Position numbers and translations under genes: made by a program. Of a stretch of DNA of 64,000 nt, positions 3,411 through 19,933 are shown piece by piece; the stretch's first letter is position 1, and each line of letters starts with the position of its first letter. Source of the stretch: an uncultured Pelagibacteraceae bacterium (lineage in GTDB: Bacteria > Pseudomonadota > Alphaproteobacteria > Pelagibacterales > Pelagibacteraceae); contig CACJLN010000002.1 in assembly GCA_902594255.1 (NCBI GenBank), positions 82,289-146,288 on the forward strand, given 5' to 3'. Under the pieces are notes generated by a model that saw nothing but the letters and a program-made list of their open reading frames with translations, had not been told where the DNA came from and searched no databases.

Positions 3411-3494
3411 CTATTTTTTTTTGTTTTTCTTTCTGGCTCGTCTTTTTTTTGAGCCCATTTTTCTCCGGCCTCTATGCTTTTTTGGATATCCCAT
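3411..3494 (-). CDS. Candidate 27-aa highly basic protein
   Basis: A very short ORF starts at ATG 3494 and ends at TAG 3411. The product, beginning MGYPKKHRGRRKMGSKKRR, has 16 Lys, Arg or His among its 27 residues and two Gly-containing turns. A good Shine-Dalgarno sequence (AAAGGA) sits 5 bases before the ATG, unusual in this weak-SD genome, which supports translation. Its stop lies 8 bases before the start of the downstream membrane gene. Size and composition resemble tiny ribosome-associated proteins such as bTHX, but I see no clear sequence match to that family. It could also be a chance ORF in an A-rich stretch. Confidence 0.45.
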   Translation of the reverse strand: MGYPKKHRGRRKMGSKKRRARKKNKKK

Positions 3495-3570
3495 TATTTC
3501 CTTTAGTTATAATTTAATTGAAATTATGTCAGGGATATAGCATTGTCTTTTATAGTTATCAATTTTTTTT

Positions 3571-4746: not shown

Positions 4747-4752
4747 ATTTCA

Positions 4753-5973
4753 ATGCAATCTGAAAAATTTATAAGAAATAACACAGCGTTAATTACTTTA
4801 ATTGCAGCTAGCTTAGTTGTTCTAATTTCTTTAGGTGTGAGACAAACATTTGGAATGTTCTTTATGGACTTTAGAGATGATTTAGGAATCTCTTTAACCC
4901 AATCTGGTTTATCAATTGGTCTTCAAATGTTAATGTGGGGATTGACTGGGCCTATTTTTGGGGTAATAGCAGATAAGTATGGTGGACATAAAGCAATTTC
5001 GTTGGCATTTATCTTTTTTATAGCTGGAGTTTATTTTTTGTATGCAGGACCAAATACTGGAATTTTTTTTCAAATTGATCTTGGCATTTTAGTTGGTATT
5101 GGTCTTGGAGGCACTGCTATAAGTATTCCAATGTCTGTTGTAGGTAAACACTTTCCTTTGTCTAATAGAACTATCGCCATGAGTATTGTTACTGCAGTTG
5201 GTTCATTTGGTTATTTTCTATCTCCTATATTAACAGAGTACTCTCTCACAGAAAACGGCTGGCAAAATACTTTATTTGCATTTATGATTGCTTTAACTAT
5301 CGGATTTGCTGTTTCCTTTCTTGTTAGATCTCCATCATTAAATGACACAATTGAACAACCAAATACTCAAAGTACTTTAGAGGCAATTAAAGAAGCTTTT
5401 GGTACTAAAAGTTATTTACTTTTAGTTTCAGGTTTTTTTGTATGCGGTTTTCATATAACTTTAGTTGGAACTCATGTTCCAACATACGTAATTGATAGAG
5501 GTTTAGAAAGTTGGACTGCAGCAGCAATTTTATCATTGATAGGTTTGTTTAATATTTTTGGTTCTTTGACTAGTGGTTATTTATCAACAATAATGAGTAA
5601 AAAATTAATACTAAGTGCAATTTATGGTTTGAGAGGAGTAACAATTATATTTTTTATATTTTTACCGGCGAGCAATATTAACTCTTTTATCTTTGGTGCA
5701 AGTTTTGGTTTTTTATGGCTCTCTACTGTGCCAGCCACAAGTGGCATAGTTGCCCATATGTTTGGCACAAAGTATTTAGGTCTATTATACGGTATTGTCT
5801 TTTTAAGCCATCAAATCGGTTCTTTCTTCGGGGCTTTTCTAGGGGGCTTGTTTCATGATCTTTATGGCTCGTATGATTATGCGTGGTATTTAGCAATTGC
5901 CTTATCTGTTTTTGCGGCAATAATTCATTTACCAATTAAAGAACAACCAGTTTTAAGACTAAAAACAGAGTAA
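4753..5973 (+). CDS. MFS transporter, monocarboxylate/OFA-like
   Basis: A 406-aa major facilitator with the expected 12 hydrophobic segments split into two halves. The first half has RQTFGMFFMDFRDDLG after helix 1 and the conserved loop-2/3 motif GVIADKYGGHKA, which corresponds to the MFS signature G-x-x-x-D-R/K-x-G-R/H. The arrangement resembles monocarboxylate or oxalate:formate antiporter-type carriers, so a small organic acid is a plausible substrate, but nothing in the sequence fixes it. It lies 6 bases after metC and 1 base before the pabB TTG start, so it is probably the middle gene of a longer plus-strand transcript. Confidence 0.85.
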   Translation: MQSEKFIRNNTALITLIAASLVVLISLGVRQTFGMFFMDFRDDLGISLTQSGLSIGLQMLMWGLTGPIFGVIADKYGGHKAISLAFIFFIAGVYFLYAGPNTGIFFQIDLGILVGIGLGGTAISIPMSVVGKHFPLSNRTIAMSIVTAVGSFGYFLSPILTEYSLTENGWQNTLFAFMIALTIGFAVSFLVRSPSLNDTIEQPNTQSTLEAIKEAFGTKSYLLLVSGFFVCGFHITLVGTHVPTYVIDRGLESWTAAAILSLIGLFNIFGSLTSGYLSTIMSKKLILSAIYGLRGVTIIFFIFLPASNINSFIFGASFGFLWLSTVPATSGIVAHMFGTKYLGLLYGIVFLSHQIGSFFGAFLGGLFHDLYGSYDYAWYLAIALSVFAAIIHLPIKEQPVLRLKTE

Positions 5974-5974
5974 A

Positions 5975-7126
5975 TTGAATATAACAAAACAATTATCAGA
6001 TATACATCAGTCGGGAGCACCTTATATTATTTATAAATCCCAAAAAGGATTTGATCTTTATACTGATTTTTCAAAAAAAATTATTTTGAATAATAAAAAT
6101 ATTAAGAATTTTTTAAGTAAAATAAATAGAAAAAAATTAAAAAATACCGATCTATTCATTGGTTTTTTTGGATACGAGTTGTTGAATAATTTGATTAATA
6201 TCAAGGTCCCAAAACAAAAAAATTTAAATTTTCCAAAAGGAATTTTTTATAAACCAGAAAAAAAGATTAAATTAAGTAATAATTTTAAATATCCAAAACA
6301 AAAATTTGCTGCTGGAAATTTTCATATAAATATGAATAAAAAAAATTATACGAAAATATTCAGTAAATTTAAAAAAAAAATTAAAAAAGGTGAAACCTAT
6401 CAAATTAAGATTTGCACCAAATATAAGACCAAATCAAAAATCAATCCCTTAGATTTTTTTTCAAGATTATCTAATAGCAATTTAGCACCAGAGGCCTTCA
6501 TGATTAAAGATAACAATTACTCAATAATTAGTTGTTCGCCCGAGAACTTAATAACAAAAAAAGGTGCTGATATATCAACAAAACCAATAGCTGGGACTGT
6601 AAAAAAAACGAAAAATTTGAATAAGTTAAAAGCGTTAAATTATTTTAGAAAAAATTTAAAAGAGACCAAGGAACACAATATGATAGTTGATATGGAAAGA
6701 AATGATTTATCGAGAATCTGTAAAGTAGGCTCTGTAAAATTATCTAAACAAAAAATTGTCGAAGAATACAAAGATCTCTTTCATTATGTTAGTTTGATTA
6801 AAGGAAAATTAAGAAAAAATATCAACAACTTTGATATAATTAAAGCAATGATGCCAGGTGGTTCAGTTATTGGGTGTCCAAAGATAAATACGCTCAATCT
6901 TTTGAATAATCAGGAAAAAGAAAATAGGAATATTTATACGGGTAGTTTTGGCTACATAAAATTTAATGGTGATATGAGATTTAATATAATTATACGTTCA
7001 ATTCTAAATTATAAAAATATATCTGAAATTTCAGTTGCCTCAGGTGTTGTCGTCGATAGTAATGCCAATCATGAATTTAATGAGAATTTTCTTAAAGCTA
7101 AAGCGTTAATAGATTTATTTAAATGA
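5975..7126 (+). CDS. pabB: Aminodeoxychorismate synthase component I
   Basis: PabB converts chorismate and PabA-derived ammonia to 4-amino-4-deoxychorismate for folate synthesis. The 383-aa protein shows the chorismate-binding core: KKGETYQIKI, ISCSPENLI, KPIAGTVKKT (the PIAGT form of PabB), EHNMIVDMERNDLSRI, and PGGSVIGCPK with YTGSFGYI. The Lys in KPIAGT (PIAGT in place of the anthranilate synthase PIAGTR region) matches aminodeoxychorismate synthases. The start is TTG at 5975, right after the MFS stop; no ATG occurs early enough. The 3' end overlaps pabA in ATGA fashion. Anthranilate synthase is less likely because the partner genes are pabA and pabC. Confidence 0.9.
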   Translation: MNITKQLSDIHQSGAPYIIYKSQKGFDLYTDFSKKIILNNKNIKNFLSKINRKKLKNTDLFIGFFGYELLNNLINIKVPKQKNLNFPKGIFYKPEKKIKLSNNFKYPKQKFAAGNFHINMNKKNYTKIFSKFKKKIKKGETYQIKICTKYKTKSKINPLDFFSRLSNSNLAPEAFMIKDNNYSIISCSPENLITKKGADISTKPIAGTVKKTKNLNKLKALNYFRKNLKETKEHNMIVDMERNDLSRICKVGSVKLSKQKIVEEYKDLFHYVSLIKGKLRKNINNFDIIKAMMPGGSVIGCPKINTLNLLNNQEKENRNIYTGSFGYIKFNGDMRFNIIIRSILNYKNISEISVASGVVVDSNANHEFNENFLKAKALIDLFK

Positions 7127-7680
7127 TTTATGTAATTGATCATAACGACTCGTTTACTCATAATGTTGTTCATCAATTCGCTTTATTTGATAAAGTTGAC
7201 TGCGATAACTATGATAAAATTAGCGAAAATAAGATTAAGAAAGCATCTACAATAATTTTCTCACCCGGACCAGGTAATCCAAAAAATTATCCAATAACTT
7301 CACAAATTTATAAAAAATATAAAGGTAAAAAGAAAATCATAGGGATTTGTTTAGGATTTCAACATATTTTATTTTGCGAGGGTGCAAAAATTGTTGAACA
7401 AAAAAAAATTTATCATGGATTTCAATCAAATATAAAAGTAATCACTGATAAATCTTTATTCAACAAAGGAAAAATATTTAAAGTTGGTAGGTATCATTCT
7501 TTAAAATTAAAAGAACCTTTCAAATCTAACAATTTTGAGATAACTATGAGATGTTTAAATTCAAAAGTTGCAATGGCATTTGAAAATAAAAAGGAAAAAA
7601 TATATGGATTTCAATTTCACCCAGAATCTTTTTTAACTATCAATGGTAACCTACTTATTAAAAAAATCTTATCAGCTTGA
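7123..7680 (+). CDS. pabA: Aminodeoxychorismate synthase component II, glutamine amidotransferase
   Basis: This class I glutamine amidotransferase subunit of 185 aa provides ammonia to PabB. The nucleophile is Cys76 in GICLGFQHI, and the His-Glu pair of the triad is in FQFHPESF near residues 163-170. The oxyanion-loop motif FSPGPGNP is at about 46-53. The N-terminal MIYVIDHNDSFTHNV is the canonical start of PabA/TrpG proteins. Its ATG overlaps the pabB stop by 4 bases, and its end overlaps pabC by 38 bases. Between pabB and pabC the folate role is much more likely than tryptophan synthesis. Confidence 0.93.
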   Translation: MIYVIDHNDSFTHNVVHQFALFDKVDCDNYDKISENKIKKASTIIFSPGPGNPKNYPITSQIYKKYKGKKKIIGICLGFQHILFCEGAKIVEQKKIYHGFQSNIKVITDKSLFNKGKIFKVGRYHSLKLKEPFKSNNFEITMRCLNSKVAMAFENKKEKIYGFQFHPESFLTINGNLLIKKILSA

Positions 7681-8416
7681 AGACTTAAAACAGGTAGAAT
7701 TTCAAGATCTTTGGGGGGATCATGGAATTTTCACCACTATGTGGATTTTTGGGAAACCAGCAAAAATTTTATTTTTTGATAATCATTTAAAAAATTTAAT
7801 TTTATCATTGAAAAAATATCAAATAAAAAAGAAATCATTAAAGTCAGATATTTTAAAAATAATTAATAGAAATTTATCTAAAAAAAGAAAATACAATCAT
7901 CTTTTGAGAATTGCTATAAATAAGAAAGTTATTTCAATCTCTTTAAGGAAACGAATTAAGCCAAAATTAAATTTTAATTTGAAGTTAGTGAAATTTAAAA
8001 GAGAAAAACCAGAATTTAAAAACCTTAAATATAAAAAAATACTTTCTTATTTATCTAAAATGGATAACTCCCAATCAGATATTGCATTAGTATCTAATAA
8101 GAAATTATTAGAAACTGGAACCTCAAATTTACTATTTGTTAAAGACCAAAGATTTTTTATTCCCAAAAAGGATTATTATGAGGGAAATACTTATAAATTT
8201 TTTAAAACAAAAATAAGAAAGATAATTAAAAAAGATATTTTGCTTAAAGAAATAAAAAATTATGATGAAATATTATTAATAGGTTCTGGCAAAGGTGTTA
8301 CTTCAGTTAAAACTATAAATGAGCTTAGATGGAAAAGAAAAAACCTAAAAAAATTTAAATTTCTATCAAAGCAATATGAATCAGTTATAAACAAATGTAA
8401 TTATTATAGATTTTAA
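7643..8416 (+). CDS. pabC: Aminodeoxychorismate lyase-like class IV aminotransferase
   Basis: This 257-aa PLP fold-type IV protein would release pyruvate from aminodeoxychorismate to give 4-aminobenzoate. The N-terminus has DLWGDHGIFTTMW, matching the 'GDGVFET' region of the family, followed by FDNHLKNLILSL. A lysine in YKKILSYL fits the PLP Schiff-base position, and SNKKLLETGTSNLLFV matches the conserved E-x-x-x-S-N element. The protein is unusually Lys-rich and divergent. Its ATG at 7643 overlaps pabA by 38 bases, and no later start preserves the GDHG motif, so the overlap seems genuine. A branched-chain or D-amino acid aminotransferase role is possible, but the operon favours pabC. Confidence 0.8.
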   Translation: MVTYLLKKSYQLEDLKQVEFQDLWGDHGIFTTMWIFGKPAKILFFDNHLKNLILSLKKYQIKKKSLKSDILKIINRNLSKKRKYNHLLRIAINKKVISISLRKRIKPKLNFNLKLVKFKREKPEFKNLKYKKILSYLSKMDNSQSDIALVSNKKLLETGTSNLLFVKDQRFFIPKKDYYEGNTYKFFKTKIRKIIKKDILLKEIKNYDEILLIGSGKGVTSVKTINELRWKRKNLKKFKFLSKQYESVINKCNYYRF

Positions 8417-8419
8417 TAG

Positions 8420-8818
8420 ATGAAAGATCCAAACAATCCCTGTTTATTTTGTGATGTAAAAAAAACTGGAATTGTTTATGAAAATGAGTTGGTATACGCA
8501 AGTTATGATTCATATCCAGTTTCAGAACACCATTGCTTGATTATACCCAAAAGACATACTAAGGATTATTTTGACTTATCTAATGATGAACTGCTTGCAT
8601 GTAATGATCTTATAAAAATTGTTAAAAAAGAAATAATCAATAAAGATCCGTTAGTTAAAGGATTTAATCTAGGTACAAATATAGGAATTGTATCCGGTCA
8701 ATCTATTTTACATTGTCATTTTCATCTGATTCCCCGAAGAGAAGGAGATGTTGACAATCCCCAGGGTGGAGTGCGATCAGTCATTCCAAACAAACAACAT
8801 TATAAAAGAAATAATTAG
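8420..8818 (+). CDS. HIT family nucleotide-binding protein
   Basis: A 132-aa histidine-triad protein, with the HxHxH signature at His98, His100 and His102 (LHCHFHLIPR). The N-terminal CLFCDVKKTGIVYENE and the GTNIGIVSGQ segment match the HIT fold, whose members hydrolyse nucleoside phosphoramidates, dinucleoside polyphosphates or act as AMP-lysine hydrolases. The CxxC pair at residues 8 and 11 could bind zinc as in many bacterial HIT proteins. The gene starts 4 bases after pabC and probably ends that transcript, since a good promoter for aprM follows. The physiological substrate is unknown. Confidence 0.9.
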   Translation: MKDPNNPCLFCDVKKTGIVYENELVYASYDSYPVSEHHCLIIPKRHTKDYFDLSNDELLACNDLIKIVKKEIINKDPLVKGFNLGTNIGIVSGQSILHCHFHLIPRREGDVDNPQGGVRSVIPNKQHYKRNN

Positions 8819-8836
8819 CCTGTTATAAAAGACAAA

Positions 8837-8865
8837 TTGACCGCAGTTTGAGGTTGAACTATAAT
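8837..8865 (+). promoter_or_regulatory. Near-consensus sigma-70 promoter of the apr operon
   Basis: The -35 element TTGACC is at 8837-8842 and a perfect TATAAT -10 is at 8860-8865, separated by exactly 17 bases. Transcription would start near 8872, some 47 bases before aprM. Such a clean promoter stands out against the A+T background. A strong Shine-Dalgarno sequence AGGCGG lies at 8911-8916 just before the aprM ATG. Confidence 0.75.
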
Positions 8866-8871
8866 TTCAAC
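8853..8871. promoter_or_regulatory. Inverted repeat overlapping the apr -10 box, possible operator
   Basis: GTTGAA (8853-8858) and TTCAAC (8866-8871) form a perfect 6-base inverted repeat around a 7-base centre that contains most of the TATAAT box. The position over the -10 and start site is that of a repressor operator. No regulator gene lies beside it and the repeat is short, so function is inferred. Confidence 0.4.
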
Positions 8872-8918
8872 TATATATAAAACTTTAAAACTAATTCAAA
8901 ATTTAACAAAAGGCGGAA

Positions 8919-9713
8919 ATGTTAAGTAACAATCCATTTTCAATTTTATCAGAAACTATTTCACCATTTGCAATGCAATCTTTTATTATTGCAATGGTTT
9001 TGTTGATTGCAGTTGGAACTATTATTCAAATGATACATCATAAAAATTTGACTTATTTTTTTAATAACGCAAAAAAAGCAAAACTATCAGCGACAAAAGA
9101 ACTAGGTGTTGGAGAAAAAGTTTCCGTGATTGCCAAAACAACAGTTGTTGATATTGGTACTACCTCTGAACTAGGTTTTGGTAAAAGAAGATTAGCCCAT
9201 GTTCTAGGAATGTATGGAACAATTTTATTTTGGGTGTCATCAGCTGTTTTAGTTTTTTGTTACACAGGTGCTGATAAACCAACTTCTCAAACTTGGTCAA
9301 TGATTTGGCATGCAGGAGCAATATTAACTTGCTTAGGTGGGTATTGGTTTTGGTTTTTTTTAAGAGTAGACGTATCAGCGGAAGCTCATCCTTGGTATAG
9401 AATTATTAAAGCTGATTTATTTGTTTTAGCATTACTGGCTTGCTCAACTTTTGGGTTAGCTTGGTCATTCGCTCAATTTAATGGGCAAATAGGTCTGTCT
9501 TATTTATTCTTAACTTTATTTGTGGCATCAAACTTAATTTTATTTGGTGGTGTTTATTGGTCAAAATTTGCACATATGTTTTATAAACCTGGAGCAGCAA
9601 TACAAAAAAACTTAGCAGAAGCAGATGGTTCTAGAGATAATCTACCTCCACCAGCTGATGCCCCTGAACAATTTGGCCTGGGTATAAAAAGAGAAGAGCC
9701 AAAACATTATTAA
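8919..9713 (+). CDS. aprM: AprM-like membrane anchor of APS reductase
   Basis: This 264-aa membrane protein has about five hydrophobic helices starting near residues 20, 95, 125, 160 and 190. It precedes aprB and aprA with the same spacing seen in sulfur-oxidising and SAR11-type apr loci, where AprM is proposed to anchor AprBA and move electrons between it and the quinone pool. Histidines within or near helices (for example in IWHAGAIL and in AHVLGMYG) are possible haem ligands, but haem binding is not proven. The C-terminus is a hydrophilic Pro-rich tail (NLPPPADAPEQFG). It has a near-consensus promoter and a strong Shine-Dalgarno site. Confidence 0.82.
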   Translation: MLSNNPFSILSETISPFAMQSFIIAMVLLIAVGTIIQMIHHKNLTYFFNNAKKAKLSATKELGVGEKVSVIAKTTVVDIGTTSELGFGKRRLAHVLGMYGTILFWVSSAVLVFCYTGADKPTSQTWSMIWHAGAILTCLGGYWFWFFLRVDVSAEAHPWYRIIKADLFVLALLACSTFGLAWSFAQFNGQIGLSYLFLTLFVASNLILFGGVYWSKFAHMFYKPGAAIQKNLAEADGSRDNLPPPADAPEQFGLGIKREEPKHY

Positions 9714-9746
9714 TATGATATTAGAAAAAGGAGTAAAATAAAAATT

Positions 9747-10217
9747 ATGTCAACTTTTGTATACATGACAAGATGTGATGGCTGTGGACACTGTGTAGAC
9801 ATATGTCCGTCAGACATAATGCACATTGATGAAAATATTAGAAGAGCAAAAAATATTGAACCAAATTTTTGTTGGGAATGTTATTCTTGTGTCAAAGCAT
9901 GTCCAAATCATGCGATCGATGTAAGAGGGTATGCTGACTTTGCCCCGATGGGTCACAGTGTTAGAGTTAGAAGAGAAGAAGAAAAAGGAACCATCTCTTG
10001 GAAAATTAAATTTAGAAATGGAACAGAGAAAAATTTTGTTTCACCAATAACAACAAAGCCATGGGGAAAATTTATACCTAAGCTTGCTGAAGGTGATACG
10101 CCTAATCAAGGAGAAATAAACTCGCAGAGACTATATAGTGAGCCAGAGGGTTTAAATACCAATAAAGAATTACCATCAGTTCCAAAAGAATCTTTCAAAA
10201 AAGGTGTCTACTATTAA
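9747..10217 (+). CDS. aprB: Adenylylsulfate reductase beta subunit
   Basis: AprB is the electron-transfer subunit of APS reductase. The 156-aa protein has two [4Fe-4S] clusters: CDGCGHCVDIC (Cys10, 13, 16, 20) and CWECYSCVKAC (Cys42, 45, 48, 52). The C-terminal 90 residues form the tail that wraps around AprA in known structures. A Shine-Dalgarno-like AAAAGGAG lies upstream at about 9725. The TAA stop shares its last base with the aprA ATG (TAATG), so subunit synthesis is probably coupled. Length matches known AprB proteins. Confidence 0.95.
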   Translation: MSTFVYMTRCDGCGHCVDICPSDIMHIDENIRRAKNIEPNFCWECYSCVKACPNHAIDVRGYADFAPMGHSVRVRREEEKGTISWKIKFRNGTEKNFVSPITTKPWGKFIPKLAEGDTPNQGEINSQRLYSEPEGLNTNKELPSVPKESFKKGVYY

Positions 10218-12076
10218 TGGCTAAGCATAAAACACACTACGAAGAATGTGATGTATTAGTTGTTGGTGGCGGAATGGCTGGTACAGGAGCAACATTTGAA
10301 GCCAGGCATTGGGGAAGAGATTTAAAAATTGTTTGTGTTGAAAAAGCAAACATTGATCGAAGTGGTGCAGTCGCACAAGGTTTATATGCAATTAATTGTT
10401 ACATGGGAATGCAATGGGATGAAAATCAACCTGAAGACCATGTGAGATATGCGAGAAATGATTTAATGGGAATGGTAAGGGAAGATTTAGGTTATGACAT
10501 GGCTCGTCATGTAGACTCAACTGTTCACATGTTTGACGAGTGGGGTTTACCAATGATGAAAAATGAAAAAACTGGTAGATATCTTAGAGAAGGTAAATGG
10601 CAAATAATGATTCACGGTGAAAGTTATAAACCAATTGTTGCTGAGGCAGCAAAAAAATCTGCTGATAAAATTTATAACAGAATAATGGTTACACATTTGT
10701 TAATGGATGAGTCTCAAGAAAATAGAATTGGTGGTGCAGTTGGTTTTAATATGAGAACGGGTGATTTTCATGTGTTTAGAGCAAAAGCAGTTATCGTTGC
10801 TGCAGGTGGTGCATCGCATATTTTCAAACCGAGGGCTGTAGGTGAAGGTATGGGAAGAACTTGGTATGCACCATGGAGTAATGGATCTGCATATGCCCTA
10901 CCTATTGCTGCAGGTGCTAAGATGACTCAAATGGAAAATAGAATTGTGTTGTGTAGATTTAAAGATGGTTATGGACCCGTTGGAGCATATTTTTTACATT
11001 TAAAAACATATACACAAAATGCTAATGGAGAAAACTATGAGAAAAAATGGTATGATCAAACTAAAGAATTAGTAGGGGAGTATATTGATCATCATCCAAC
11101 TCCAACTTGTTTAAGAAACCATGCATTTATCCAAGAGGTAGCTGCAGGTGGTGGACCGATCCACATGGTTACCAAAGAAGCTTTTCAGGACCCACATTTA
11201 GAAACAGTTGGATGGGAGAACTTTTTAGGAATGACAGTTGGTCAAGCTGTTGTTTGGGCATCACAAAATATTGATCCAAAATATACAAATCCAGAGCTGA
11301 CAACATCTGAACCTTACGTAATGGGTTCTCATGCTACATGTTCTGGAGCATGGGTGAGTGGACCTGAAGATCTTTCTCCTCCAGAATATTTTTGGGGTTA
11401 TAATAGAATGTTAACTATTGATGGACTTTTTGGTGCGGGAGATACAGTTGGTGGTAGTGCTCATAAATTTTCATCAGGATCATTTACTGAGGGAAGATTA
11501 GCAGCCAAAGCAGCAGTCAAATACATAGAAGACAAAAAAGCTGAGGGAATCAAAGTATCTGATAATCAATGTGAAAACTTTAAGACCGCAGTATACAAAC
11601 CCTTAGAAACTTTTACTGTTGCTCAAAATGAGATTACAGGTGGTACAGTATCTCCAAGTTACATATCGCCAATTCAAGGTCTACAAAGACTGCAAAAAAT
11701 CATGGATGAATATGTGGGTGGAATTACATCAAATTACATGACCAATGGAAATTTACTAAAAAAAGCATTAGAACTTTTAGATTGGCTTCAAGAGGACTTA
11801 GAAAAAGTAGGTGCAGAAGACTATCATCAATTAATGAGAGCTTGGGAATTGAAACATAGAGCTTTAACCTCTCAATGTGTAACAGAACATACCTTGTTTA
11901 GAGAAGAAACACGTTGGCCTGGCTATTATTATAGGGGTGATCATATGAAATTAGATGATGAGAACTGGCATTGTTTGACTGTCTCAAGGAGAGATCCTAA
12001 AACTGGTAAATTTACTTTAGAAAAGGTCCCTGTTTATCATATTGTCGATGAAAAAGAGAAAAAGAAAGCCTCTTAA
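10217..12076 (+). CDS. aprA: Adenylylsulfate reductase alpha subunit
   Basis: AprA is the FAD subunit that interconverts APS and sulfite plus AMP. The 619-aa protein begins with the dinucleotide-binding VLVVGGGMAGTGATFEARHW, and keeps IDRSGAVAQGL, KAVIVAAGGASHIF, the active-site MGSHATCSGAW region and GLFGAGDTVGGSAHKFSSGS. Length and motifs are those of true AprA and not of fumarate reductase or L-aspartate oxidase. With Xsc and SuyAB nearby, both of which release sulfite, and with no dissimilatory sulfite reductase in the window, the likely direction is sulfite oxidation to APS. The partner that would turn APS into sulfate (Sat or an adenylyltransferase) is not in this window. Confidence 0.96.
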   Translation: MAKHKTHYEECDVLVVGGGMAGTGATFEARHWGRDLKIVCVEKANIDRSGAVAQGLYAINCYMGMQWDENQPEDHVRYARNDLMGMVREDLGYDMARHVDSTVHMFDEWGLPMMKNEKTGRYLREGKWQIMIHGESYKPIVAEAAKKSADKIYNRIMVTHLLMDESQENRIGGAVGFNMRTGDFHVFRAKAVIVAAGGASHIFKPRAVGEGMGRTWYAPWSNGSAYALPIAAGAKMTQMENRIVLCRFKDGYGPVGAYFLHLKTYTQNANGENYEKKWYDQTKELVGEYIDHHPTPTCLRNHAFIQEVAAGGGPIHMVTKEAFQDPHLETVGWENFLGMTVGQAVVWASQNIDPKYTNPELTTSEPYVMGSHATCSGAWVSGPEDLSPPEYFWGYNRMLTIDGLFGAGDTVGGSAHKFSSGSFTEGRLAAKAAVKYIEDKKAEGIKVSDNQCENFKTAVYKPLETFTVAQNEITGGTVSPSYISPIQGLQRLQKIMDEYVGGITSNYMTNGNLLKKALELLDWLQEDLEKVGAEDYHQLMRAWELKHRALTSQCVTEHTLFREETRWPGYYYRGDHMKLDDENWHCLTVSRRDPKTGKFTLEKVPVYHIVDEKEKKKAS

Positions 12077-12093
12077 TTAAACATTTTAATTAA
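12073..12093. repeat. Perfect 9-bp A+T hairpin at the aprA stop
   Basis: TTAATTAAA (12073-12081), loop CAT, and TTTAATTAA (12085-12093) form a perfect inverted repeat that includes the aprA stop codon. There is no T-run long enough to call a terminator. It might affect mRNA stability between aprA and the following ORF, or be chance in A+T-rich DNA. Confidence 0.3.
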
Positions 12094-12099
12094 AAATTC

Positions 12100-12450
12100 A
12101 TGGACTTATTAGCTAAATCTGATGAAGAAATTTTCGCAATAGGTAAACCATTTTGGGAGAACTTAGTAAGATCCTCAAATCTTAAGGATTATGGAAGTTT
12201 TACAAGAGATTTTTCAACACAGATGTTATTTGGTGCCAATGAGGTAGAATTGGGCAAGCAGTGGGCAAATAATGAGCTAATCACCAACTTAAATGAAACT
12301 TATGAGCCTTTCGGCACTTTAAGAAGGGGAGATCACATTACAGTTCTTATCAAACAAACTAATAAGAAAATTCCTGGTGAATTTTTAGGCAGACTTGTGC
12401 TTGGAGTAGAGGATGGCGAGGTCAAAGTTTTTGGTGCAACTATCTACTAA
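12100..12450 (+). CDS. Unknown 116-aa protein downstream of aprA
   Basis: I do not recognise this family. The protein is soluble-looking, with no signal peptide or membrane helix. Its first half is helical and acidic (MDLLAKSDEEIFAIGKPFWE), followed by a mixed region with YEPFGTLRRGDHITVLIKQ and a beta-rich C-terminus (GEFLGRLVLGVEDGEVKVFG). The end looks like a small beta barrel or sandwich. The start ATG is 23 bases after aprA with no strong Shine-Dalgarno sequence, so it is probably read from the apr message. Position suggests an accessory or assembly factor for APS reductase or a sulfite-handling protein, but that is context only. Confidence 0.8.
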   Translation: MDLLAKSDEEIFAIGKPFWENLVRSSNLKDYGSFTRDFSTQMLFGANEVELGKQWANNELITNLNETYEPFGTLRRGDHITVLIKQTNKKIPGEFLGRLVLGVEDGEVKVFGATIY

Positions 12451-12477
12451 AAAAAGAATTAATTTTTCAATAATAGT

Positions 12478-12505
12478 TTGACAATTTATCTACCGGGTGT
12501 ATGAG
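12478..12505 (+). promoter_or_regulatory. Possible weak promoter before the 44-aa ORF
   Basis: A perfect TTGACA -35 hexamer occurs at 12478-12483. The best -10 is TATGAG at 12500-12505 after 16 bases, which matches only four of six consensus positions. If used, the transcript would start almost at the ATG at 12514, giving a near-leaderless message. It would serve the small ORF and the tauE/safE permease. Confidence 0.3.
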
Positions 12506-12513
12506 AAATATAA

Positions 12514-12648
12514 ATGCACCTTCCAAATATAAAAATCCCCCAAATACTCTCTGAAAAAAAAACGACTTTAATTAAAACAGGAATTTTTTCAGCAATTGTT
12601 GCTTGTTGGGGTGTAATCTTATTTGGAACTTTTATAACTTTTAGTTAA
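12514..12648 (+). CDS. Small single-pass membrane protein, 44 aa, unknown
   Basis: A short ORF runs from ATG 12514 to TAA 12648. The protein begins MHLPNIKIPQILSEKKTTLI and then has one hydrophobic helix (about residues 22-43, with GIFSAIVACWGVILFGTFI) reaching almost to the C-terminus. It sits between the 116-aa protein and the TauE/SafE permease, 22 bases before the latter. Nothing else explains this 220-base gap. Membrane-tail topology suggests a small partner of the permease or of AprM, which is speculation. Lack of a visible Shine-Dalgarno sequence and small size limit confidence. Confidence 0.55.
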   Translation: MHLPNIKIPQILSEKKTTLIKTGIFSAIVACWGVILFGTFITFS

Positions 12649-12670
12649 GTTATATTTAAAGTTTTTTAAG

Positions 12671-13765
12671 ATGGATGTTTTTTTACCTATAGCTCAAGTA
12701 TTTATTAACCCTGTCGAAATACTTTTAATAAGCGCTATAGTTGGAGTTCTCTCTGGTTTATTTGGTGTAGGGGGTGGTTTCTTAATGACACCTTTTTTAA
12801 TCTTCATGGGTGTTCCCCCAGCTTATGCAGTTGCCAACGAGGCCAACAATATTTTGGCAACCTCTGTATCTGGATCAACCACTCACTGGTTAAAAAATAC
12901 TTTAGATTACAAAATGGGATTTATGATTGTAATTGGTGGAACTATAGGAACCATAGTGGGTATTTTTACTTTCACATATTTTAAAGATATCGGTAAAATA
13001 GATACAGTAATTTCTTTAGCCTACATGTATATTCTTGCAATAATTGGCACTCTGATGTTAGTGGAAAGTTTGGGTGAAATTGATAAAGCCAAAAAGAACA
13101 TTGTAGAGAAAAAAAAATTACATGTTCATTATTGGATACATGGACTTCCTTTTAGAATGAGGTTTCCAAAATCAAAACTATATGAAAGTATATTCACACC
13201 TATCATAATTGGATTAGTTGTTGGGTTTATAGCAGCTATAATGGGGATAGGTGGTGCATTTATCTTAGTGCCTGCAATGATTTATATTATTAAGATGCCA
13301 ACAAAATTAGTTCCTGGAACTTCCTTATTCGTAACAATTTTTGTGAGTGTCATAGTTACATTTCTTCATTCAATTAATTATGGTTCAATAGATCTAATGT
13401 TAGTGCTAATGTTAGTTATAGGCTCAATAATTGGAGTACAAGTAGGTCAAAAACTTGGTGAGCAAATTGATAGTTCTGGACTAAAAGCATTATTAGCAAT
13501 TTTACTATTAATTGTAGGAATAGTAATTGCTTATGATACTTTCTTTGCAGAAGAAACACTGAATGGCACAACACCTATAAGCGCGAAAGACTTAAATTTT
13601 TTCTCAAAGTTTATTAAAGAGTTTTCAGAGGATATGCCATTCTTCTATGGATTATTTTCGATTTTATTTGCTGTTATTTTAGGAATTGCAGCTGCTTTTA
13701 TTAGAAGATCAATTTCAAAGTTTAGAGAAAAATATTTTAAAAAACCAGTCAAACAATCTAAATAA
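12671..13765 (+). CDS. TauE/SafE family permease, probable sulfite/sulfonate-linked exporter
   Basis: This 364-aa membrane protein belongs to the TauE/SafE (DUF81) family: two related halves, each starting with a Gly-rich helix (VGVLSGLFGVGGGFLMTPFL near residue 24 and GFIAAIMGIGGAFILVPAM near 188). About eight to nine helices are visible, with a long charged loop (about residues 130-170) and a C-terminal extension of roughly 60 residues with one more helix. Family members export sulfite, sulfoacetate or related anions. Next to aprMBA and convergent with the suyAB operon, sulfite or sulfate export is the natural reading. The 3' end overlaps the convergent UPF0324 gene by 8 bases. Confidence 0.85.
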   Translation: MDVFLPIAQVFINPVEILLISAIVGVLSGLFGVGGGFLMTPFLIFMGVPPAYAVANEANNILATSVSGSTTHWLKNTLDYKMGFMIVIGGTIGTIVGIFTFTYFKDIGKIDTVISLAYMYILAIIGTLMLVESLGEIDKAKKNIVEKKKLHVHYWIHGLPFRMRFPKSKLYESIFTPIIIGLVVGFIAAIMGIGGAFILVPAMIYIIKMPTKLVPGTSLFVTIFVSVIVTFLHSINYGSIDLMLVLMLVIGSIIGVQVGQKLGEQIDSSGLKALLAILLLIVGIVIAYDTFFAEETLNGTTPISAKDLNFFSKFIKEFSEDMPFFYGLFSILFAVILGIAAAFIRRSISKFREKYFKKPVKQSK

Positions 13766-14825
13766 AAAACTTTAAATAAGTTTCTATAGTTATAATACTC
13801 ACAATTCCTACAGTTAACATTGCCGTAAATCCAACAACAAAAGGTTTATAACCCATATTTCTAATATCTTTTAAGTTTGTTGATAAGCCTATAGCAGCCA
13901 TAGCCATAGTTAGGAAAATTTTAGAACTTGCTCTAATAAAATCTATAATTTCAATCCAATTATTATTAGTTGAGAAAACTTCATCACCAATATTTCTAAA
14001 AATTATCATCCCAACAAAACCTAAAATAAAATAAGGAAATATACCTAAAATGGAGTAACCCTTTTTTTTTACCTGACCTCTATTATAAAGAAAGGCAAAA
14101 AGAGGGATCATCACTATTAAAAAAGTATTTCTTAAAAGTTTTGTGACAGTTGCAACATTTAATGTTTCGGGACTATTATACTGTTGATCATATATTAATC
14201 CTGCTGCAGCAACTTGTGATGTTTCGTGTATAGCTGTTCCTAAAAAAAGACCTGCAAATAACGAATTTCCCTCAAAATAGAAATTTGAGAAATAAGGATA
14301 TAACAACATCGATAATATTCCAAATAAAGTAATATTTGCGATTGCATAAGAAATTTCACTTTTATTTGCTTTTATTACAGGCGCGGTTGCCATGATAGCA
14401 GTTGTACCACAAACGCTGCTTCCGATTGATATCAAGTAAGCCATCCGAGTTGGTATTTGAAGTTTCTTAATTAAAAGTTTTATTACGATTAAGACACTAA
14501 TTATACAAATTAATATCAATGGAATTGCAATTTTTCCAAACTCAAAAAACTCAAAAGGCTTTAATTGTATTCCTAAACAGATTATGCCAAGTTTTAAGAT
14601 ATAATCTTTAGTAAAATCCAATCCTTTTTGAAAACTTTCTCTAATCTTAAAAAAATTCCCAAAGAAAATACCGAGTAGAATTGCTATCATCGCCGTGGAG
14701 ATCGGACTTTTGATATATCCTAAAAGCTCAATACCAATAATGTTATTAAAACCTTGTGAAAGAGAATAAAGAACAAATGCAAGTATTATACCTGGTATGA
14801 ACACCAAGAAATTTTTGAACAACAT
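13758..14825 (-). CDS. UPF0324 (YeiH) family exporter, SuyZ/TauZ-like
   Basis: A 355-aa polytopic protein with about ten helices. The family signatures are visible: YLISIGSSVCGTTAIMATAP (about 140-160) and GLFLGTAIHETSQVAAAGLI (about 192-211). UPF0324 proteins linked to sulfonate catabolism have been proposed, under names such as TauZ, SuyZ and CuyZ, to export sulfite or sulfate; that is recalled knowledge and not visible in the sequence. The gene starts 14 bases after suyB on the same strand, so it is the third gene of the suyA-suyB operon. It converges with the TauE/SafE permease, so two unrelated putative exporters flank the same junction. Confidence 0.85.
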   Translation of the reverse strand: MLFKNFLVFIPGIILAFVLYSLSQGFNNIIGIELLGYIKSPISTAMIAILLGIFFGNFFKIRESFQKGLDFTKDYILKLGIICLGIQLKPFEFFEFGKIAIPLILICIISVLIVIKLLIKKLQIPTRMAYLISIGSSVCGTTAIMATAPVIKANKSEISYAIANITLFGILSMLLYPYFSNFYFEGNSLFAGLFLGTAIHETSQVAAAGLIYDQQYNSPETLNVATVTKLLRNTFLIVMIPLFAFLYNRGQVKKKGYSILGIFPYFILGFVGMIIFRNIGDEVFSTNNNWIEIIDFIRASSKIFLTMAMAAIGLSTNLKDIRNMGYKPFVVGFTAMLTVGIVSIITIETYLKFFI

Positions 14826-14839
14826 TTTTTATTTAGTAA

Positions 14840-16006
14840 TTATGCGCTTCTATAAAGTTTAGTCATAACAAATTCTTTATGACCTAAAGCTTCAGCACAA
14901 GTTAGTCTTCCATTGGCTACTCTTAACGCCGTCTCTATAAGCTTATCTCCAGCCTCAGACAAGTTCATTTCCCTTGAAAGAATTTTTGACACATCACAAT
15001 CAACATGCTCACTCATACTTTTTGCGGTTAATGGGTTTGCAGTTAATTTTACGACAGGCTCTATTGGATTTCCAACTATATTTCCTTGACCTGTTGGAAA
15101 TAAATGAATGTTAAATCCTCCAGCAGCTTGAAGTGTAATACATTCTGCAGCTGCTGAAGATGTATCCATAAAGTAAAGTCCTGGACCTTTTGTAGGTTCT
15201 TCAGCAGGTTCAAGTACATCTATAAATTTTAGGTTTCCTATTTTTTGAAAATTCCCGAATGCTTTTTCCTCAATTGTGGTTAAACCACCCGCGATATTTC
15301 CAGCAGTTGGTTGACTTTCTGAAAGATCGTTAGTTGCTTCTTTTAATATGAAATCATTATATTCATTCCATGTTTTCATAAATTTATCAGAAGCTTCTTT
15401 AGTTGCTCCTCTTGCGGCACAAACATTTTCTGCACCAGTAAGTTCAGATGTTTCACCAAAACATAAATGAACACCCAAAGGTTCTAATTTTTCCATTAGA
15501 TTTCCAACTGTTGGATTGGAAGCTAATCCTGATGTAGTGTCTGACTCTCCACATTTTACTGAAATCCATAAATCACTCATTGGACATTCTTCTCTTTGTT
15601 TTTCTGAGGCCCATTGTGAAAATTCTTGCGCTTTTTTTGAAGCTTTCATTACAGTTCCTATATCTCCTGTACGTTCTATGTGAAAACCCTCAACTGGTTT
15701 TCCTGTTTTAGCGATTCCATCGACAATTTTTTTAGTCCATTTAGGCTCAATACCGATCACAATAACCGCTGCTACATTTGGGTTACTGCCTGTTCCAATC
15801 ATTGTTCTGAAGTGTAAATCTAAGTCTGCTCCAAATTGCAGTCTTCCATAAGAATGCGGTAGTGCTATAGTCCCTTTTATATTATTAGCAACTGCTTCTG
15901 CACATGCATTAGAAATATCATCAACAGGTAAAATAATTACGTGATTTCTAGTTCCTGCTCTGCCATTTTCTCTTTTATAACCTAAAAAACTTTTTGGAAT
16001 TTCCAT
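14840..16006 (-). CDS. suyB: (2R)-sulfolactate sulfo-lyase beta subunit (UxaA family)
   Basis: SuyB is the large subunit of the enzyme that splits (R)-sulfolactate into pyruvate and sulfite. The 388-aa protein is a C-terminal-type UxaA/altronate dehydratase domain: [19 protein letters not shown] at the start, then [13 protein letters not shown], and the Cys-containing [19 protein letters not shown] and [22 protein letters not shown] regions. Altronate or galactarate dehydratase is the main alternative in this family. The preceding SuyA-type small subunit, the UPF0324 exporter behind it, and divergent xsc make sulfolactate much more likely. The gene starts 3 bases after suyA. Confidence 0.87.
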
Positions 16007-16009
16007 TAT

Positions 16010-16294
16010 TTACCACTTTTTAGTTTTTACATTGTGAACATGAACATGCTCACCTTTTTTGATCGCTTTAACTACTTTACCAATGTCATGACCATACTTT
16101 AAGATTGTATCACCTTCCTTTAGATCGACCATCGCAATTTTATGACCTAAAGGTATTTCATCTACTGATTGAATAGACGCCGAGCTATCATTTTCCATAA
16201 TCCAGCATTTACAGTCTTGTTTTGGGGTTATTTTCTCTATCACTACTACACCTACATTATCTTTTTTATCGTGAATTATGATATCTGTAGCCAT
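16010..16294 (-). CDS. suyA: (2R)-sulfolactate sulfo-lyase alpha subunit (SAF domain)
   Basis: This 94-aa protein is the small subunit with an SAF/UxaA N-terminal fold. It has IPLGHKIAMVDLKEGDTILKYG, GHDIGKVVKAIKKGEHVHVH and ends NVKTKKW, the conserved His-containing tail of SuyA and of the N-terminal domain of altronate dehydratases. Sulfo-lyase subunits are separate proteins, as here, while altronate dehydratase is usually one fused chain. It is the first gene of the suyA-suyB-UPF0324 operon and is divergent from xsc, sharing a 117-base control region that holds a perfect inverted repeat. Confidence 0.87.
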   Translation of the reverse strand: MATDIIIHDKKDNVGVVVIEKITPKQDCKCWIMENDSSASIQSVDEIPLGHKIAMVDLKEGDTILKYGHDIGKVVKAIKKGEHVHVHNVKTKKW

Positions 16295-16360
16295 ATTTAT
16301 AGTGTCGAAATGTTTGTTTGAATTTCCAAAAATCTTATATATTAATCGCGTCTATTAAGA

Positions 16361-16382
16361 AATAGTTTTATAAAAAACTATT
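16361..16382. promoter_or_regulatory. Perfect inverted repeat in the suyA-xsc divergent control region
   Basis: AATAGTTTT (16361-16369) and AAAACTATT (16374-16382) form a perfect 9-base inverted repeat around the 4-base centre ATAA, 29 bases before the xsc ATG. No T-run follows, so it is not a terminator. Its place between two divergent sulfite-releasing operons suggests a regulator binding site shared by both. Confidence 0.45.
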
Positions 16383-16411
16383 GCATATACTGGTTTAGAA
16401 AGGCTCTATAA

Positions 16412-18196
16412 ATGACAAAAATGACAACAGAAGAAGCTTTTGTAAAAGTTTTACAAATGCACGGTATTGAGCATGCTTTTGGTATAATTGGTTCAGCATT
16501 CATGCCTATTTCTGATATTTTTCCTGATGCCGGAATAACATTTTGGGACGTAGCTCATGAAACAAATGGTGGTTTGATTGCTGATGGTTACACAAGAGCC
16601 ACTGGAAAAATGTCTATGGTCATTGCACAAAATGGACCAGGTATAACAGGATTAGTAACACCAATTAAAACAGCTTACTGGAATCATACACCTTTGCTAT
16701 TAGTGACTCCTCAAGCTGCTAATAAAACAATGGGTCAAGGTGGTTTTCAAGAAGTAGAGCAAATGAATTTATTTAAGGATATGGTCTGTTATCAAGAAGA
16801 GGTTAGAGATCCTTCAAGAATGGCTGAGGTATTAAACAGAGTTATTGAAAAAGCAATACGAGGCTCAGCACCAGCACAAATAAATGTTCCAAGAGACTAT
16901 TGGTGTCAAGTAATTGATATCGAGCTTCCTCCAATCGTAAGATTAGAGAGGCAGGGCGGAGGAGAAGATGCAATTTCAAAAGCAGCAGAGCTATTATCAA
17001 AAGCAAAATTTCCAGTTATTTTATCTGGGGCAGGAGTTGTGATCGGAGGTGCTATCGAAGAAACTAAAAAGTTAGCTGAAAAACTTGACTCACCAGTTTG
17101 TTCTGGTTATCAGCACAACGATAGTTTTCCTGGCAGCCATCCTTTAGCAGTTGGACCGTTAGGTTATAATGGATCAAAAGCTGCAATGGAACTAATTTCA
17201 AAAGCAGATGTTGTTTTAGCACTAGGAACAAGATTAAATCCTTTTTCAACTTTACCAGGATATGGAATTGACTATTGGCCAAAGAGCGCAAGTATAATTC
17301 AGGTAGATATGAATCCAGATAGAATTGGATTAACAAAAAAGGTTACAGTTGGAATAAGTGGGGATGCAAAGTTAGTGGCTAAGCAAATTTTAGAAAAATT
17401 ATCCTCAAAGGCTGGAGATACAGATAGACAACAAAGAAGAGATTTAATTCACCAAACTAAATCAGCATGGTTACAAAAATTGTCAAGTTTAGATCATGAA
17501 GATGATGATGAAGGAACAGTTTGGAATAAAGAAGCAAGAGAAAGAGATGCCGATAGAATGTCGCCAAGACAAGCATGGAGAGCAATCCAAGCAGGTATGC
17601 CTGAAGATGTAATTATTTCTAGTGATATTGGAAATAATTGTGCAATTGGTAATGCTTATCCAACTTTTGAAAAACCAAGAAAATATTTAGCTCCTGGTCT
17701 TTTTGGTCCATGTGGCTATGGTTTTCCCTCAATCTTAGGTGCAAAAATTGGATGTCCTGATACACCTGTAATTGGTTTTGCAGGAGATGGAGCTTTTGGA
17801 ATTAGCATGAATGAAATGAGTTCTTGCGCAAGAGAAGAATGGCCAGCCATTACTATGGTTATATTTAGAAATTATCAATGGGGTGCAGAAAAAAGAAATA
17901 CCACTCTTTGGTTTGATAATAATTTTGTTGGAACAGAGCTTGATCCAGAATTAAGTTTTGCAAAAGTAGCAGATGCATGTGGTTTAAAGGGTGTGACTGT
18001 TAAAACTATGGATGAAACTACTGCAGCAATCAAGCAGTCTTGTGAAGATCAAAAGAAAGGTGTAACAACATTTATTGAGGTAATTTTAAATCAAGAGTTG
18101 GGCGAACCTTTCAGAAGAGATGCAATGAAAAAACCAGTAAGAGTTGCTGGTATTAAAAAAGAGGATATGAAAAAGCAACCCTCTTTAAACTCTTAA
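16412..18196 (+). CDS. xsc: Sulfoacetaldehyde acetyltransferase
   Basis: Xsc is a thiamine-diphosphate enzyme that turns sulfoacetaldehyde and phosphate into acetyl phosphate and sulfite, the common desulfonation step for taurine, isethionate and related sulfonates. The 594-aa protein starts MTKMTTEEAFVKVLQMHGIE and has FGIIGSAFMPISDIFP, ETNGGLIADGYTRATGKM, GPGITGLVTPIKTAYWNHTP, and the cofactor motif GDGAFG to FRN at about 455-487 (GDG...N). The segment FRNYQWGAEKRN and the 'GSAFMPISD' region distinguish Xsc from acetolactate synthase and glyoxylate carboligase. It is preceded by a modest Shine-Dalgarno (GAAAGG). No phosphotransacetylase or taurine transaminase gene is in the window. Confidence 0.95.
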   Translation: MTKMTTEEAFVKVLQMHGIEHAFGIIGSAFMPISDIFPDAGITFWDVAHETNGGLIADGYTRATGKMSMVIAQNGPGITGLVTPIKTAYWNHTPLLLVTPQAANKTMGQGGFQEVEQMNLFKDMVCYQEEVRDPSRMAEVLNRVIEKAIRGSAPAQINVPRDYWCQVIDIELPPIVRLERQGGGEDAISKAAELLSKAKFPVILSGAGVVIGGAIEETKKLAEKLDSPVCSGYQHNDSFPGSHPLAVGPLGYNGSKAAMELISKADVVLALGTRLNPFSTLPGYGIDYWPKSASIIQVDMNPDRIGLTKKVTVGISGDAKLVAKQILEKLSSKAGDTDRQQRRDLIHQTKSAWLQKLSSLDHEDDDEGTVWNKEARERDADRMSPRQAWRAIQAGMPEDVIISSDIGNNCAIGNAYPTFEKPRKYLAPGLFGPCGYGFPSILGAKIGCPDTPVIGFAGDGAFGISMNEMSSCAREEWPAITMVIFRNYQWGAEKRNTTLWFDNNFVGTELDPELSFAKVADACGLKGVTVKTMDETTAAIKQSCEDQKKGVTTFIEVILNQELGEPFRRDAMKKPVRVAGIKKEDMKKQPSLNS

Positions 18197-18235
18197 CATC
18201 TTTAAACTAATCAACAATTAGCGTAATCTTTTTTA

Positions 18236-19933
18236 ATGAATAAGATTCTTTCAAGTTTAATTATTTTAATGATTTTTTTTGCGTGGTGGTGCGCATTAAT
18301 AATTGGATTATCTTGGGACGAATATTTTCACCATATTAACGGCCTAGTAAGATATAATTTTTTAACATCCTTGGGTGATTTTCAGAAATTTGAGTTTAGG
18401 AACAATAAATTTTATCCAGGACTGTATGACACTATTTCATATGCTTTTGGACAAATCTTTCTTTTTATTAATAAAAAGTTTTACGTGCAAAATATTGATT
18501 TAATTATGCATATGGTAAATATCTCTTTTTCATCATTAAGTATTTTGGGATTATATTTATTAACTAAAGAAATATTTAATAAAAAGATTGCATTGTTTTC
18601 AGTATTATTGACTTTACTTAATCCCTTCTTTTTTGGCCACATGGGAATGAATTCAAAAGATATTATCGTTTTTTTTAGCTTTATATGGTTTTGTTATTTC
18701 TTTTATCTTTACTGTAAAGATGATGAAAAAATATTTAAAAATTTAATCTTAGCATCTTTGTGCGTTGGATTTGGGTGTGGGGTAAGATTGACATTTTTAA
18801 TTGTAATTTTTCCAGCCGTTATACTTGGTTTCATTTTTTTAATTAAAAAATATAAGTCAAATTATTTAACTTTAGTTAAAAGACTTTCTTTACATATCCC
18901 AATTGTTTTTATAATTACAATATTTTTAGTAATTTTATGTTGGCCACATTTTATTGTAGAACTACAGAAAGGTAATTTTATTGAATTTACCTCACTTATA
19001 ATTAAAAACACAATTAACTGGATCGATGGACCAAAAATTGGCTTGATAAACGGAGAATTCTATGAGGTATTCAACACACCTAAAACTTATTTTTTAGATC
19101 TAATTATTTTCAGATTACCGTTTTATCTCACTTTTTTATTAATATGCTCTTATTTTTTGATTTTTTCAAAAAAAAAAACCATTAACAATGAAATAGAAAA
19201 TTTTGATAAAAAATTTATTTCATTAAATATTATTGCCTTTTTTCCTATATGTTTAGCATTAATTCTAAGCGTAAATGTTTATGATAATTTAAGATTGTTT
19301 TTATTTATAATTCCATTTTTGAGTATAATTTCATCTATATCTTTAAATTATTTTTTTGAAAATTTCAAAAGTTATACACAAATAAAAGTTGTTACAGTTT
19401 TTGTATTCTTTTTATTTTCTTTATCATTTTATAGATTTATTATTCTCACACCATATCAATATACTTATGTAAACTATTCTTATTTAAAATTTGAAAATAG
19501 TATAGGAAAGTTTGAACATGATTATTGGGGCTCATCATACAAGGAATTAGTGAAAAAAATTAAACAAAAATATAGTAAAGAAGAAATAGATAAATTTAAA
19601 ATAGCTGATTGTGGAGGTGGTGACTACACTCTTGTTTATTATTTGAATAAATATTTAGGAGTTAAAAAAACTTTCAGTAATATCGATGTATTAGATCAAG
19701 CAACTCATATTGTGATGAATAATAGAGCTTTTTTAGATGTATTTGAAAATGAACATGTAAAGGATTTAGTTGATGAGAAGGGAGCTATGTTGCTTACTGA
19801 TATGGAAAAAGTATCAAGGGCTCCTAATATACGTCAAACATGTTTTGACTATAAGCCATTCAGTGGAAAAAATGCTGTTGTTGTTTCAAGAGATGGTCTG
19901 CCACTTACGATTTTCAGAGAAGTAGATAAATAG
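18236..19933 (+). CDS. GT-C fold membrane glycosyltransferase (PMT/ArnT-like)
   Basis: This 565-aa protein has a hydrophobic N-terminal helix, then about ten more helices to residue 400, and a soluble C-terminal domain of about 150 residues. The acidic pair Asp-Glu in LSWDEYFHHING right after helix 1 (residues 27-29) is the hallmark catalytic motif of GT-C enzymes such as protein O-mannosyltransferases and ArnT, which transfer sugars from lipid-phosphate donors on the outer face. A second conserved region is NPFFFGHMGMNSKDI (near 132). Acceptor and sugar are unknown. It is 39 bases after xsc but functionally unrelated, and converges on the hydratase gene. Confidence 0.75.
   Translation: MNKILSSLIILMIFFAWWCALIIGLSWDEYFHHINGLVRYNFLTSLGDFQKFEFRNNKFYPGLYDTISYAFGQIFLFINKKFYVQNIDLIMHMVNISFSSLSILGLYLLTKEIFNKKIALFSVLLTLLNPFFFGHMGMNSKDIIVFFSFIWFCYFFYLYCKDDEKIFKNLILASLCVGFGCGVRLTFLIVIFPAVILGFIFLIKKYKSNYLTLVKRLSLHIPIVFIITIFLVILCWPHFIVELQKGNFIEFTSLIIKNTINWIDGPKIGLINGEFYEVFNTPKTYFLDLIIFRLPFYLTFLLICSYFLIFSKKKTINNEIENFDKKFISLNIIAFFPICLALILSVNVYDNLRLFLFIIPFLSIISSISLNYFFENFKSYTQIKVVTVFVFFLFSLSFYRFIILTPYQYTYVNYSYLKFENSIGKFEHDYWGSSYKELVKKIKQKYSKEEIDKFKIADCGGGDYTLVYYLNKYLGVKKTFSNIDVLDQATHIVMNNRAFLDVFENEHVKDLVDEKGAMLLTDMEKVSRAPNIRQTCFDYKPFSGKNAVVVSRDGLPLTIFREVDK

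Follow-up and report, generated by a model that had tools for sequence, protein, structure and literature searches.

In a 64,000-nucleotide stretch of DNA from an uncultured Pelagibacteraceae bacterium (contig CACJLN010000002.1 of assembly GCA_902594255.1; this whole stretch is hereafter the window), genes predicted to serve the release of sulfite from sulfonates, its oxidation to adenosine 5'-phosphosulfate (APS) and export lie side by side at positions 8837–18196, directly preceded by a gene of the histidine triad (HIT) family. We tentatively read this region as a block for sulfonate dissimilation and sulfite disposal, with the HIT protein as the enzyme that would split APS. The predicted route starts with Xsc and SuyAB, which would free sulfite from sulfonates; AprMBA would oxidise this sulfite to APS using AMP, with electrons passing from AprBA via AprM towards quinones, and TauE would export the surplus. 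The HIT protein would then likely cleave APS, yielding sulfate together with AMP or, if phosphate takes part, with ADP. Two small companions may take part, the product of orf116 assisting AprBA and a 44-residue peptide assisting TauE. Reaction directions, electron flow and exporter substrates are transferred here from the known families, while gene identities, synteny, the negative results for ATP sulfurylase (sat) and, in four lineages, the proximity of HIT genes to apr or sulfonate genes were observed. The HIT protein is proposed for the last step because ATP sulfurylase was not found in the assembly and because some HIT proteins cleave APS.

The preliminary description of this DNA had remarked that no sat gene was seen, and the wider search agrees. 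The model TIGR00339 gave no match in the assembly of the window (1,021,206 bases, 36 contigs), which is 81.55% complete, so that a gene in a gap is possible; of the pair Apr and Sat that marks AMP-dependent indirect sulfite oxidation, Sat was not detected there. The comparison set comprised 197 genomes of the order (SAR11), in 152 of which aprA scored above its cut-off: 110 in the genus of the window (g1), 10 in a second genus of its family f1 (g5) and 32 in another SAR11 family (f2), by hand count. Sat passed the TIGR00339 cut-off in none of the 197 SAR11 genomes, against 18 of 20 non-SAR11 alphaproteobacteria with aprA (19 of the 20 had some match), and of 20 apr loci taken from 19 of these outgroup genomes, 15 contain a sat-like gene. 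The loss of sat with retention of apr is therefore a SAR11 trait in the genomes sampled, and this count is new here. In the open-access literature searched, PMC10356861 alone brings ATP sulfurylase and sulfite oxidation in SAR11 together; the part of it available to us states that ATP sulfurylase is lacking in most SAR11.

The HIT gene (8420..8818, plus strand), one of two in its assembly, lies just outside the region first described. Its product of 132 residues matches Pfam HIT PF01230 with 66.1 bits (cut-off 21.5) and DcpS_C with 42 bits, and the triad H98-x-H100-x-H102 is invariant in 29 aligned sequences; the domain and the HxHxH triad together place it in the HIT superfamily. The structural model has a mean pLDDT (predicted local distance difference test) of 75.2, with the Ap4A (diadenosine tetraphosphate) phosphorylase Rv2613c as the best structural match. 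Precedents for action on APS exist among relatives: in the portion of PMC7072326 consulted, Fhit is reported to free AMP from APS, and a title cited there attributes both hydrolysis and phosphorolysis of APS to Hint4 and DcpS. These proteins share the HIT domain and the HxHxH triad with the HIT protein of the window; they act on APS according to that same portion, whereas the subfamily of the window is not known to have an activity and has an Ap4A phosphorylase as its best fold match. The HIT protein of the window is thus the best candidate for an APS-splitting enzyme, by analogy with these relatives.

The position of the gene points the same way. Of 109 g1 genomes with aprA, 102 have a HIT gene on the strand of aprA and at most 5 kb upstream of it; in three of the seven exceptions (G114, G166 and G040) aprA is at a contig end. 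In the named loci, 80 in number, all titled Pelagibacteraceae or Candidatus Pelagibacter and chosen by similarity to the HIT alignment of the window, aprM is the next gene after HIT in every case (80/80). In g5 a HIT gene of another branch, grouped outside the g1 clade with a tree support of 96/97, lies on the strand of suyB and shares one base with the end of that gene in all five loci that have HIT. Outside SAR11, genome G432 shows the order sat, aprB, aprA, a CxxCxxCC protein, HIT and xsc, with HIT about 1 kb from aprA; G903, which falls outside the class, has a sat-aprMBA-orf116 locus with HIT some 2.6 kb beyond aprA. By hand count, 21 non-SAR11 places carry a HIT match above 100 bits, several of them on short contigs (L256, L261, L310 and L311); HIT is within about 3 kb of apr in two of the nine stand-alone cases versus none of the 12 fused ones. 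By a rough argument (about 10 kb counted as near, against genome sizes of 2.6 or 3.9 Mb), two apr neighbours of this kind are unlikely to arise by chance. The occurrence of a HIT-family gene near aprA in g1, and of other HIT branches at apr or sulfonate loci in three further lineages, is new here, and no open-access paper joining the histidine triad with adenylylsulfate reductase was found. Two side observations belong here. In G407 a fused HIT gene has xsc about 8 kb away, and in L223 (1–1969) HIT adjoins aprM, but its upstream neighbour is metC, on the opposite strand, in place of pab; an assembly artefact is possible there.

Several observations weigh against a role of the HIT protein in APS cleavage, and many of them would be expected if the gene is a passenger of the pab unit unrelated to APS, AprMBA merely buffering sulfite, TauE serving as the main outlet and APS being removed by an unrecognised enzyme. 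We regard this alternative as quite possible, if doubtful. Genes named by eye pabB, pabA and pabC, then the HIT gene, directly precede the block; in the window, HIT is separated from pabC by 3 bases and from aprM by 100 bases, and the medians in g1 are the same (3 bp and 100 bp). The gap between HIT and aprM contains a promoter-like element that is conserved, with an exact copy in 73 of the 80 named loci. In the window the element (in 8816–8918) carries a TTGACC box before aprM and an imperfect inverted repeat that overlaps the -10 box; the site TTGACC-17-TATAAT (8837..8865, plus strand), found in a promoter scan of 3400–19000, is the best promoter-like match there (11/12), its first base, 8837, coinciding with the start of the region first described, the scan overall being no richer than that of shuffled sequence. 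To judge from these signals, apr seems to have its own promoter. The dN/dS (ratio of nonsynonymous to synonymous substitution rates) of HIT, 0.099, is close to that of pabC (0.104), versus 0.047 for aprM and 0.015 for aprA. Moreover, apr occurs without such a HIT gene: four g1 genomes with aprA have none nearby (G028, G125, G107 and G177), none of the 32 f2 genomes with aprA has a HIT match of at least 90 bits (hand count), just five of the ten aprA-positive g5 genomes do, and 18 of the 20 outgroup alphaproteobacteria lack one above 100 bits, G432 and G317 being the two that have it.

The commoner context of the subfamily, fusion to other domains, mostly of the HNH type (by eye) or helicases, also fits a passenger better than a dedicated APS enzyme. 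HIT follows an HNH endonuclease domain in L254, L257, L262, L263, L309, L310 and L313 (by eye), and proteins of about 1,170–1,190 residues with an N-terminal HIT domain and a helicase-like region are seen, again by eye, in L261 (1189–4686) and L319 (6367–9945). In G134 an HNH-HIT fusion (L267, 8456–9451; both domains by Pfam) replaces the stand-alone HIT gene beside aprM. Plasmids hold relatives as well, in 82 records, with identities of at most 46% among the 25 listed. Against the passenger explanation speaks the location of HIT near apr or suyAB without adjoining pab genes in the g5 loci, L223, G432 and G903. Two of these genomes also set a limit on the APS-splitting reading itself: since HIT sits together with sat in G432 and G903, it is not simply a substitute for Sat. 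Further points on the same side are that residues 115–132 (the last 18) and the loop 89–93 of the HIT model fall below a pLDDT of 50, and that eight of ten SAR11 genomes with a weaker ATP-sulfurylase match carry aprA (hand count). These weaker matches, present in 10 of the 197 genomes (e.g., L053–L056), lie below the TIGR00339 cut-off; the three tested pass Pfam PF01747 and are set among other genes, and the one in G101 is found some 8 kb beyond the aprA of that genome. A joint loss of HIT and apr was considered as independent support and discarded: seven g1 genomes without aprA lack HIT, but six of them have lost the pab gene too, so that the co-loss lends no independent support. Among regulatory candidates, a shared operator GTTGAA-N6-TTCAAC was rejected (six matches in the window versus 6.4 expected), and an Rfam search for a riboswitch gave just three tRNAs.

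APS might instead be used, an APS-kinase-like protein and a small HxGH nucleotidyltransferase making activated sulfate for sulfation and by-passing ATP sulfurylase, an explanation that we consider improbable. This pair lies directly past orf116 in f2, the nucleotidyltransferase directly precedes aprM in g5, and the genome of the window has one APS_kinase match (43.7 bits) paired with a nucleotidyltransferase. In g1, however, the pair is located away from apr and is also present in genomes without aprA, and the f2 kinase-like protein scores 21.9 against an apsK cut-off of 138.7. The pair was accordingly dropped as the main APS sink of this genome, on account of its distance from apr in g1 and its presence without apr. 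The nucleotidyltransferase as such is widespread, in 151 of the 197 SAR11 genomes; it stands beside apr in f2 and g5 (L040 11162–12041; L061 12158–12538; L271 7911–8802) and is paired with the APS-kinase-like protein in f2 and most of the g1 loci read. Finally, AprBA could run reductively, as the APS reductase of an assimilatory route, the reaction being described as bidirectional in the part of PMC5069961 available. This is very improbable: the assembly has no sat match, the linked genes make sulfite, and SAR11 AprBA is placed, in the section of PMC2211403 consulted, in the sulfur-oxidiser lineage I together with AprM.

Returning to the proposed disposal block, its enzymes were identified from open reading frames and family models. 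All the genes of the preliminary description, Xsc, SuyAB, AprMBA, TauE and UPF0324, lie inside 8837–18196, with order and strands as stated there; its list lacked two frames, 12100–12450 and 12514–12648. On the plus strand, aprM (8919..9713), coding for the putative membrane partner of AprBA, is named from its position and the published aprM context; its product has no Pfam match, and its QmoC match of 19 bits is far below the cut-off of 300. It is followed by aprB (9747..10217, plus strand), the iron-sulfur subunit of adenylylsulfate reductase (TIGR02060, 188.4 bits, cut-off 135.65), and aprA (10217..12076, plus strand), the flavin subunit (TIGR02061, 993.1 bits, cut-off 641.75). With both equivalog models passed and aprM, by position, preceding aprBA, the set belongs to the lineage-I adenylylsulfate reductases. 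AprA aligns with A. fulgidus 2fja over almost its whole length and keeps N74, E141, W234, R265 and H398, which we take to be the active-site residues of the A. fulgidus enzyme.

Past the two small frames follow tauE (12671..13765, plus strand), for a putative sulfite exporter of the TauE/SafE family (PF01925, 159 bits, cut-off 32.6), and, convergent with it, a gene for a SuyZ-like putative sulfate exporter of the UPF0324/YeiH family (13758..14825, minus strand; PF03601, 230.9 bits, cut-off 24.5), which stays below the stricter TIGR00698 (161.5 bits, cut-off 232.6). The two exporters indeed meet at one tail-to-tail junction, with an overlap of 8 bases. The sulfolactate sulfo-lyase is encoded on the minus strand: SuyB, the large subunit (14840..16006; GD_AH_C, 280.7 bits, cut-off 26.8), and SuyA, the small subunit (16010..16294), assigned from its position and from its similarity (41 bits) to the N-terminal region of galactarate dehydratase, with no Pfam match. 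The block ends with Xsc, sulfoacetaldehyde acetyltransferase (16412..18196, plus strand; equivalog TIGR03457, 965.9 bits, cut-off 676.4). It had been cautioned that SuyAB might be a dehydratase of the altronate type and Xsc another thiamine diphosphate enzyme. Neither doubt holds, because Xsc passes its equivalog model and SuyB shows a sharp break in identity, from 60.5–69.1% with 13 plasmid records (Paracoccus, Methylobacterium, Rhodococcus and others) to 38% with the next relatives; the galactarate dehydratase model TIGR03248 gave 146 bits against a cut-off of 731, and the corresponding gene pair of Paracoccus versutus also has a putative exporter gene as its neighbour. The plasmid relatives, some unannotated and the others labelled UxaA family hydrolase or D-galactarate dehydratase, are probably SuyB too, to judge from their context.

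The block is conserved across Pelagibacteraceae: aprM, aprB, aprA, orf116, tauE, suyA, suyB and xsc are present in all 48 full-length named loci, on which the count of gene content rests. The dual export emphasised at the outset is less constant. Both exporters are present in the window, but UPF0324 occurs in 29 of the 48 loci, so that dual export is optional; it was not seen in the eight g5 or the 20 f2 loci read. The g5 loci otherwise have the same core as g1, whereas in the f2 loci only aprMBA-orf116 is left of the block, which makes aprMBA-orf116 the widest unit. Among the SAR11 loci read, the sulfonate genes were seen in family f1 only. The f2 apr operon in L040 (1636–7611) adjoins genes for a CMD-family protein, a GST and an FAD monooxygenase (Pfam), not xsc or suyAB, and a sulfatase-like gene is recognised there by eye. 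Published work, as far as the portions consulted extend, counts suyAB, xsc and aprAB among the core or near-core genes of Pelagibacteraceae (PMC12636525), reads AprBA without sat as sulfite detoxification (PMC5069961), describes aprM as the constant partner of lineage-I aprBA (PMC2211403), and reports the detection of Tpa, Xsc and AprAB peptides of SAR11 (PMC10356861). The joining of desulfonation, sulfite oxidation and export thus stands as a physical order, but its novelty shrinks: the core idea is not new, because the core genes (PMC12636525) and the role in sulfite removal (PMC5069961) are already in print in those portions, and the interesting parts are the physical order and the missing last step.

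Two small genes accompany the block. The frame orf116 (12100..12450, plus strand), encoding 116 residues, is the next gene past aprA in all 148 SAR11 loci with room for it, three more loci ending too early. The model of its product (pLDDT 86.8) has a predicted NTF2-like fold, with weak fold matches (best E 4.4e-4), and relatives are named from Magnetovibrio, Magnetospira and Rhodospirillaceae. As a Sat substitute it was discarded, since G481 and G903 carry both sat and orf116; because of this co-occurrence, it is best seen as a putative AprBA accessory. The other, an unannotated 44-residue frame with one hydrophobic stretch (12514..12648, plus strand), precedes tauE in 76 of the 77 named loci having both neighbours, with a dN/dS of 0.285. 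Of 12 additional g1 loci, eight have a recognised copy, and the other four show a similar frame by eye; it is absent from the eight g5 loci, where the gap measures 36–39 bases, and it has no Pfam match. Its product may serve TauE. A predicted NTF2-like protein constantly following aprA in SAR11, and an unannotated frame before tauE, are new here.

Comparable systems share parts of the block. In the portion of PMC10356861 available, Ca. Taurinisymbion ianthellae likewise forms sulfite through Xsc and APS through AprAB with AMP, and completes the route with sat and Qmo; the window has aprM for qmo and no sat match. Other alphaproteobacterial lineage-I aprMBA loci (L123, L125 and L129–L142) show the same aprMBA order as the window, whereas suyAB is found in none of the 20 non-SAR11 apr loci and xsc in one (L124, without aprM), the window having both. 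On plasmid pTAV3 of Paracoccus versutus, suyA and suyB are followed by a 'putative sulfate exporter', as in the window with its UPF0324-type gene; a 'sulfite oxidase' lies nearby, with no apr in the stretch read, in contrast to the adjoining aprMBA, tauE and xsc of the window. A suyAB-exporter cluster has reportedly been described in work on SuyABZ of P. pantotrophus. With regard to substrates, a GMC oxidoreductase gene (22863–24458) is divergent from genes for a DctPQM TRAP transporter (24592–27701), 4.7 kb beyond xsc, a layout resembling the known module for the uptake and oxidation of isethionate. A GMC relative is found near xsc in L124. Isethionate as a substrate is just a suggestion, because the GMC protein, with 601.4 bits, falls barely under the choline dehydrogenase cut-off of 605.

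The open step after APS is now tied to one small stand-alone candidate gene next to aprM. Sulfate excretion in culture with taurine is, according to the part of PMC10356861 available, not yet shown for SAR11, and how APS is handled would decide in which form, sulfite or sulfate, SAR11 cells give off the sulfur of sulfonates, and also whether oxidising sulfite by way of AMP is energetically worthwhile for a streamlined genome. A more specific version of the proposal, which we consider rather unlikely, is that SAR11 came to use a HIT-family APS phosphorylase in place of ATP sulfurylase, APS being phosphorolysed to ADP and sulfate. If true, this would revive the 'ADP sulfurylase' route, with energy conserved without pyrophosphate, in a bacterial group that ranks among the most abundant in the ocean.

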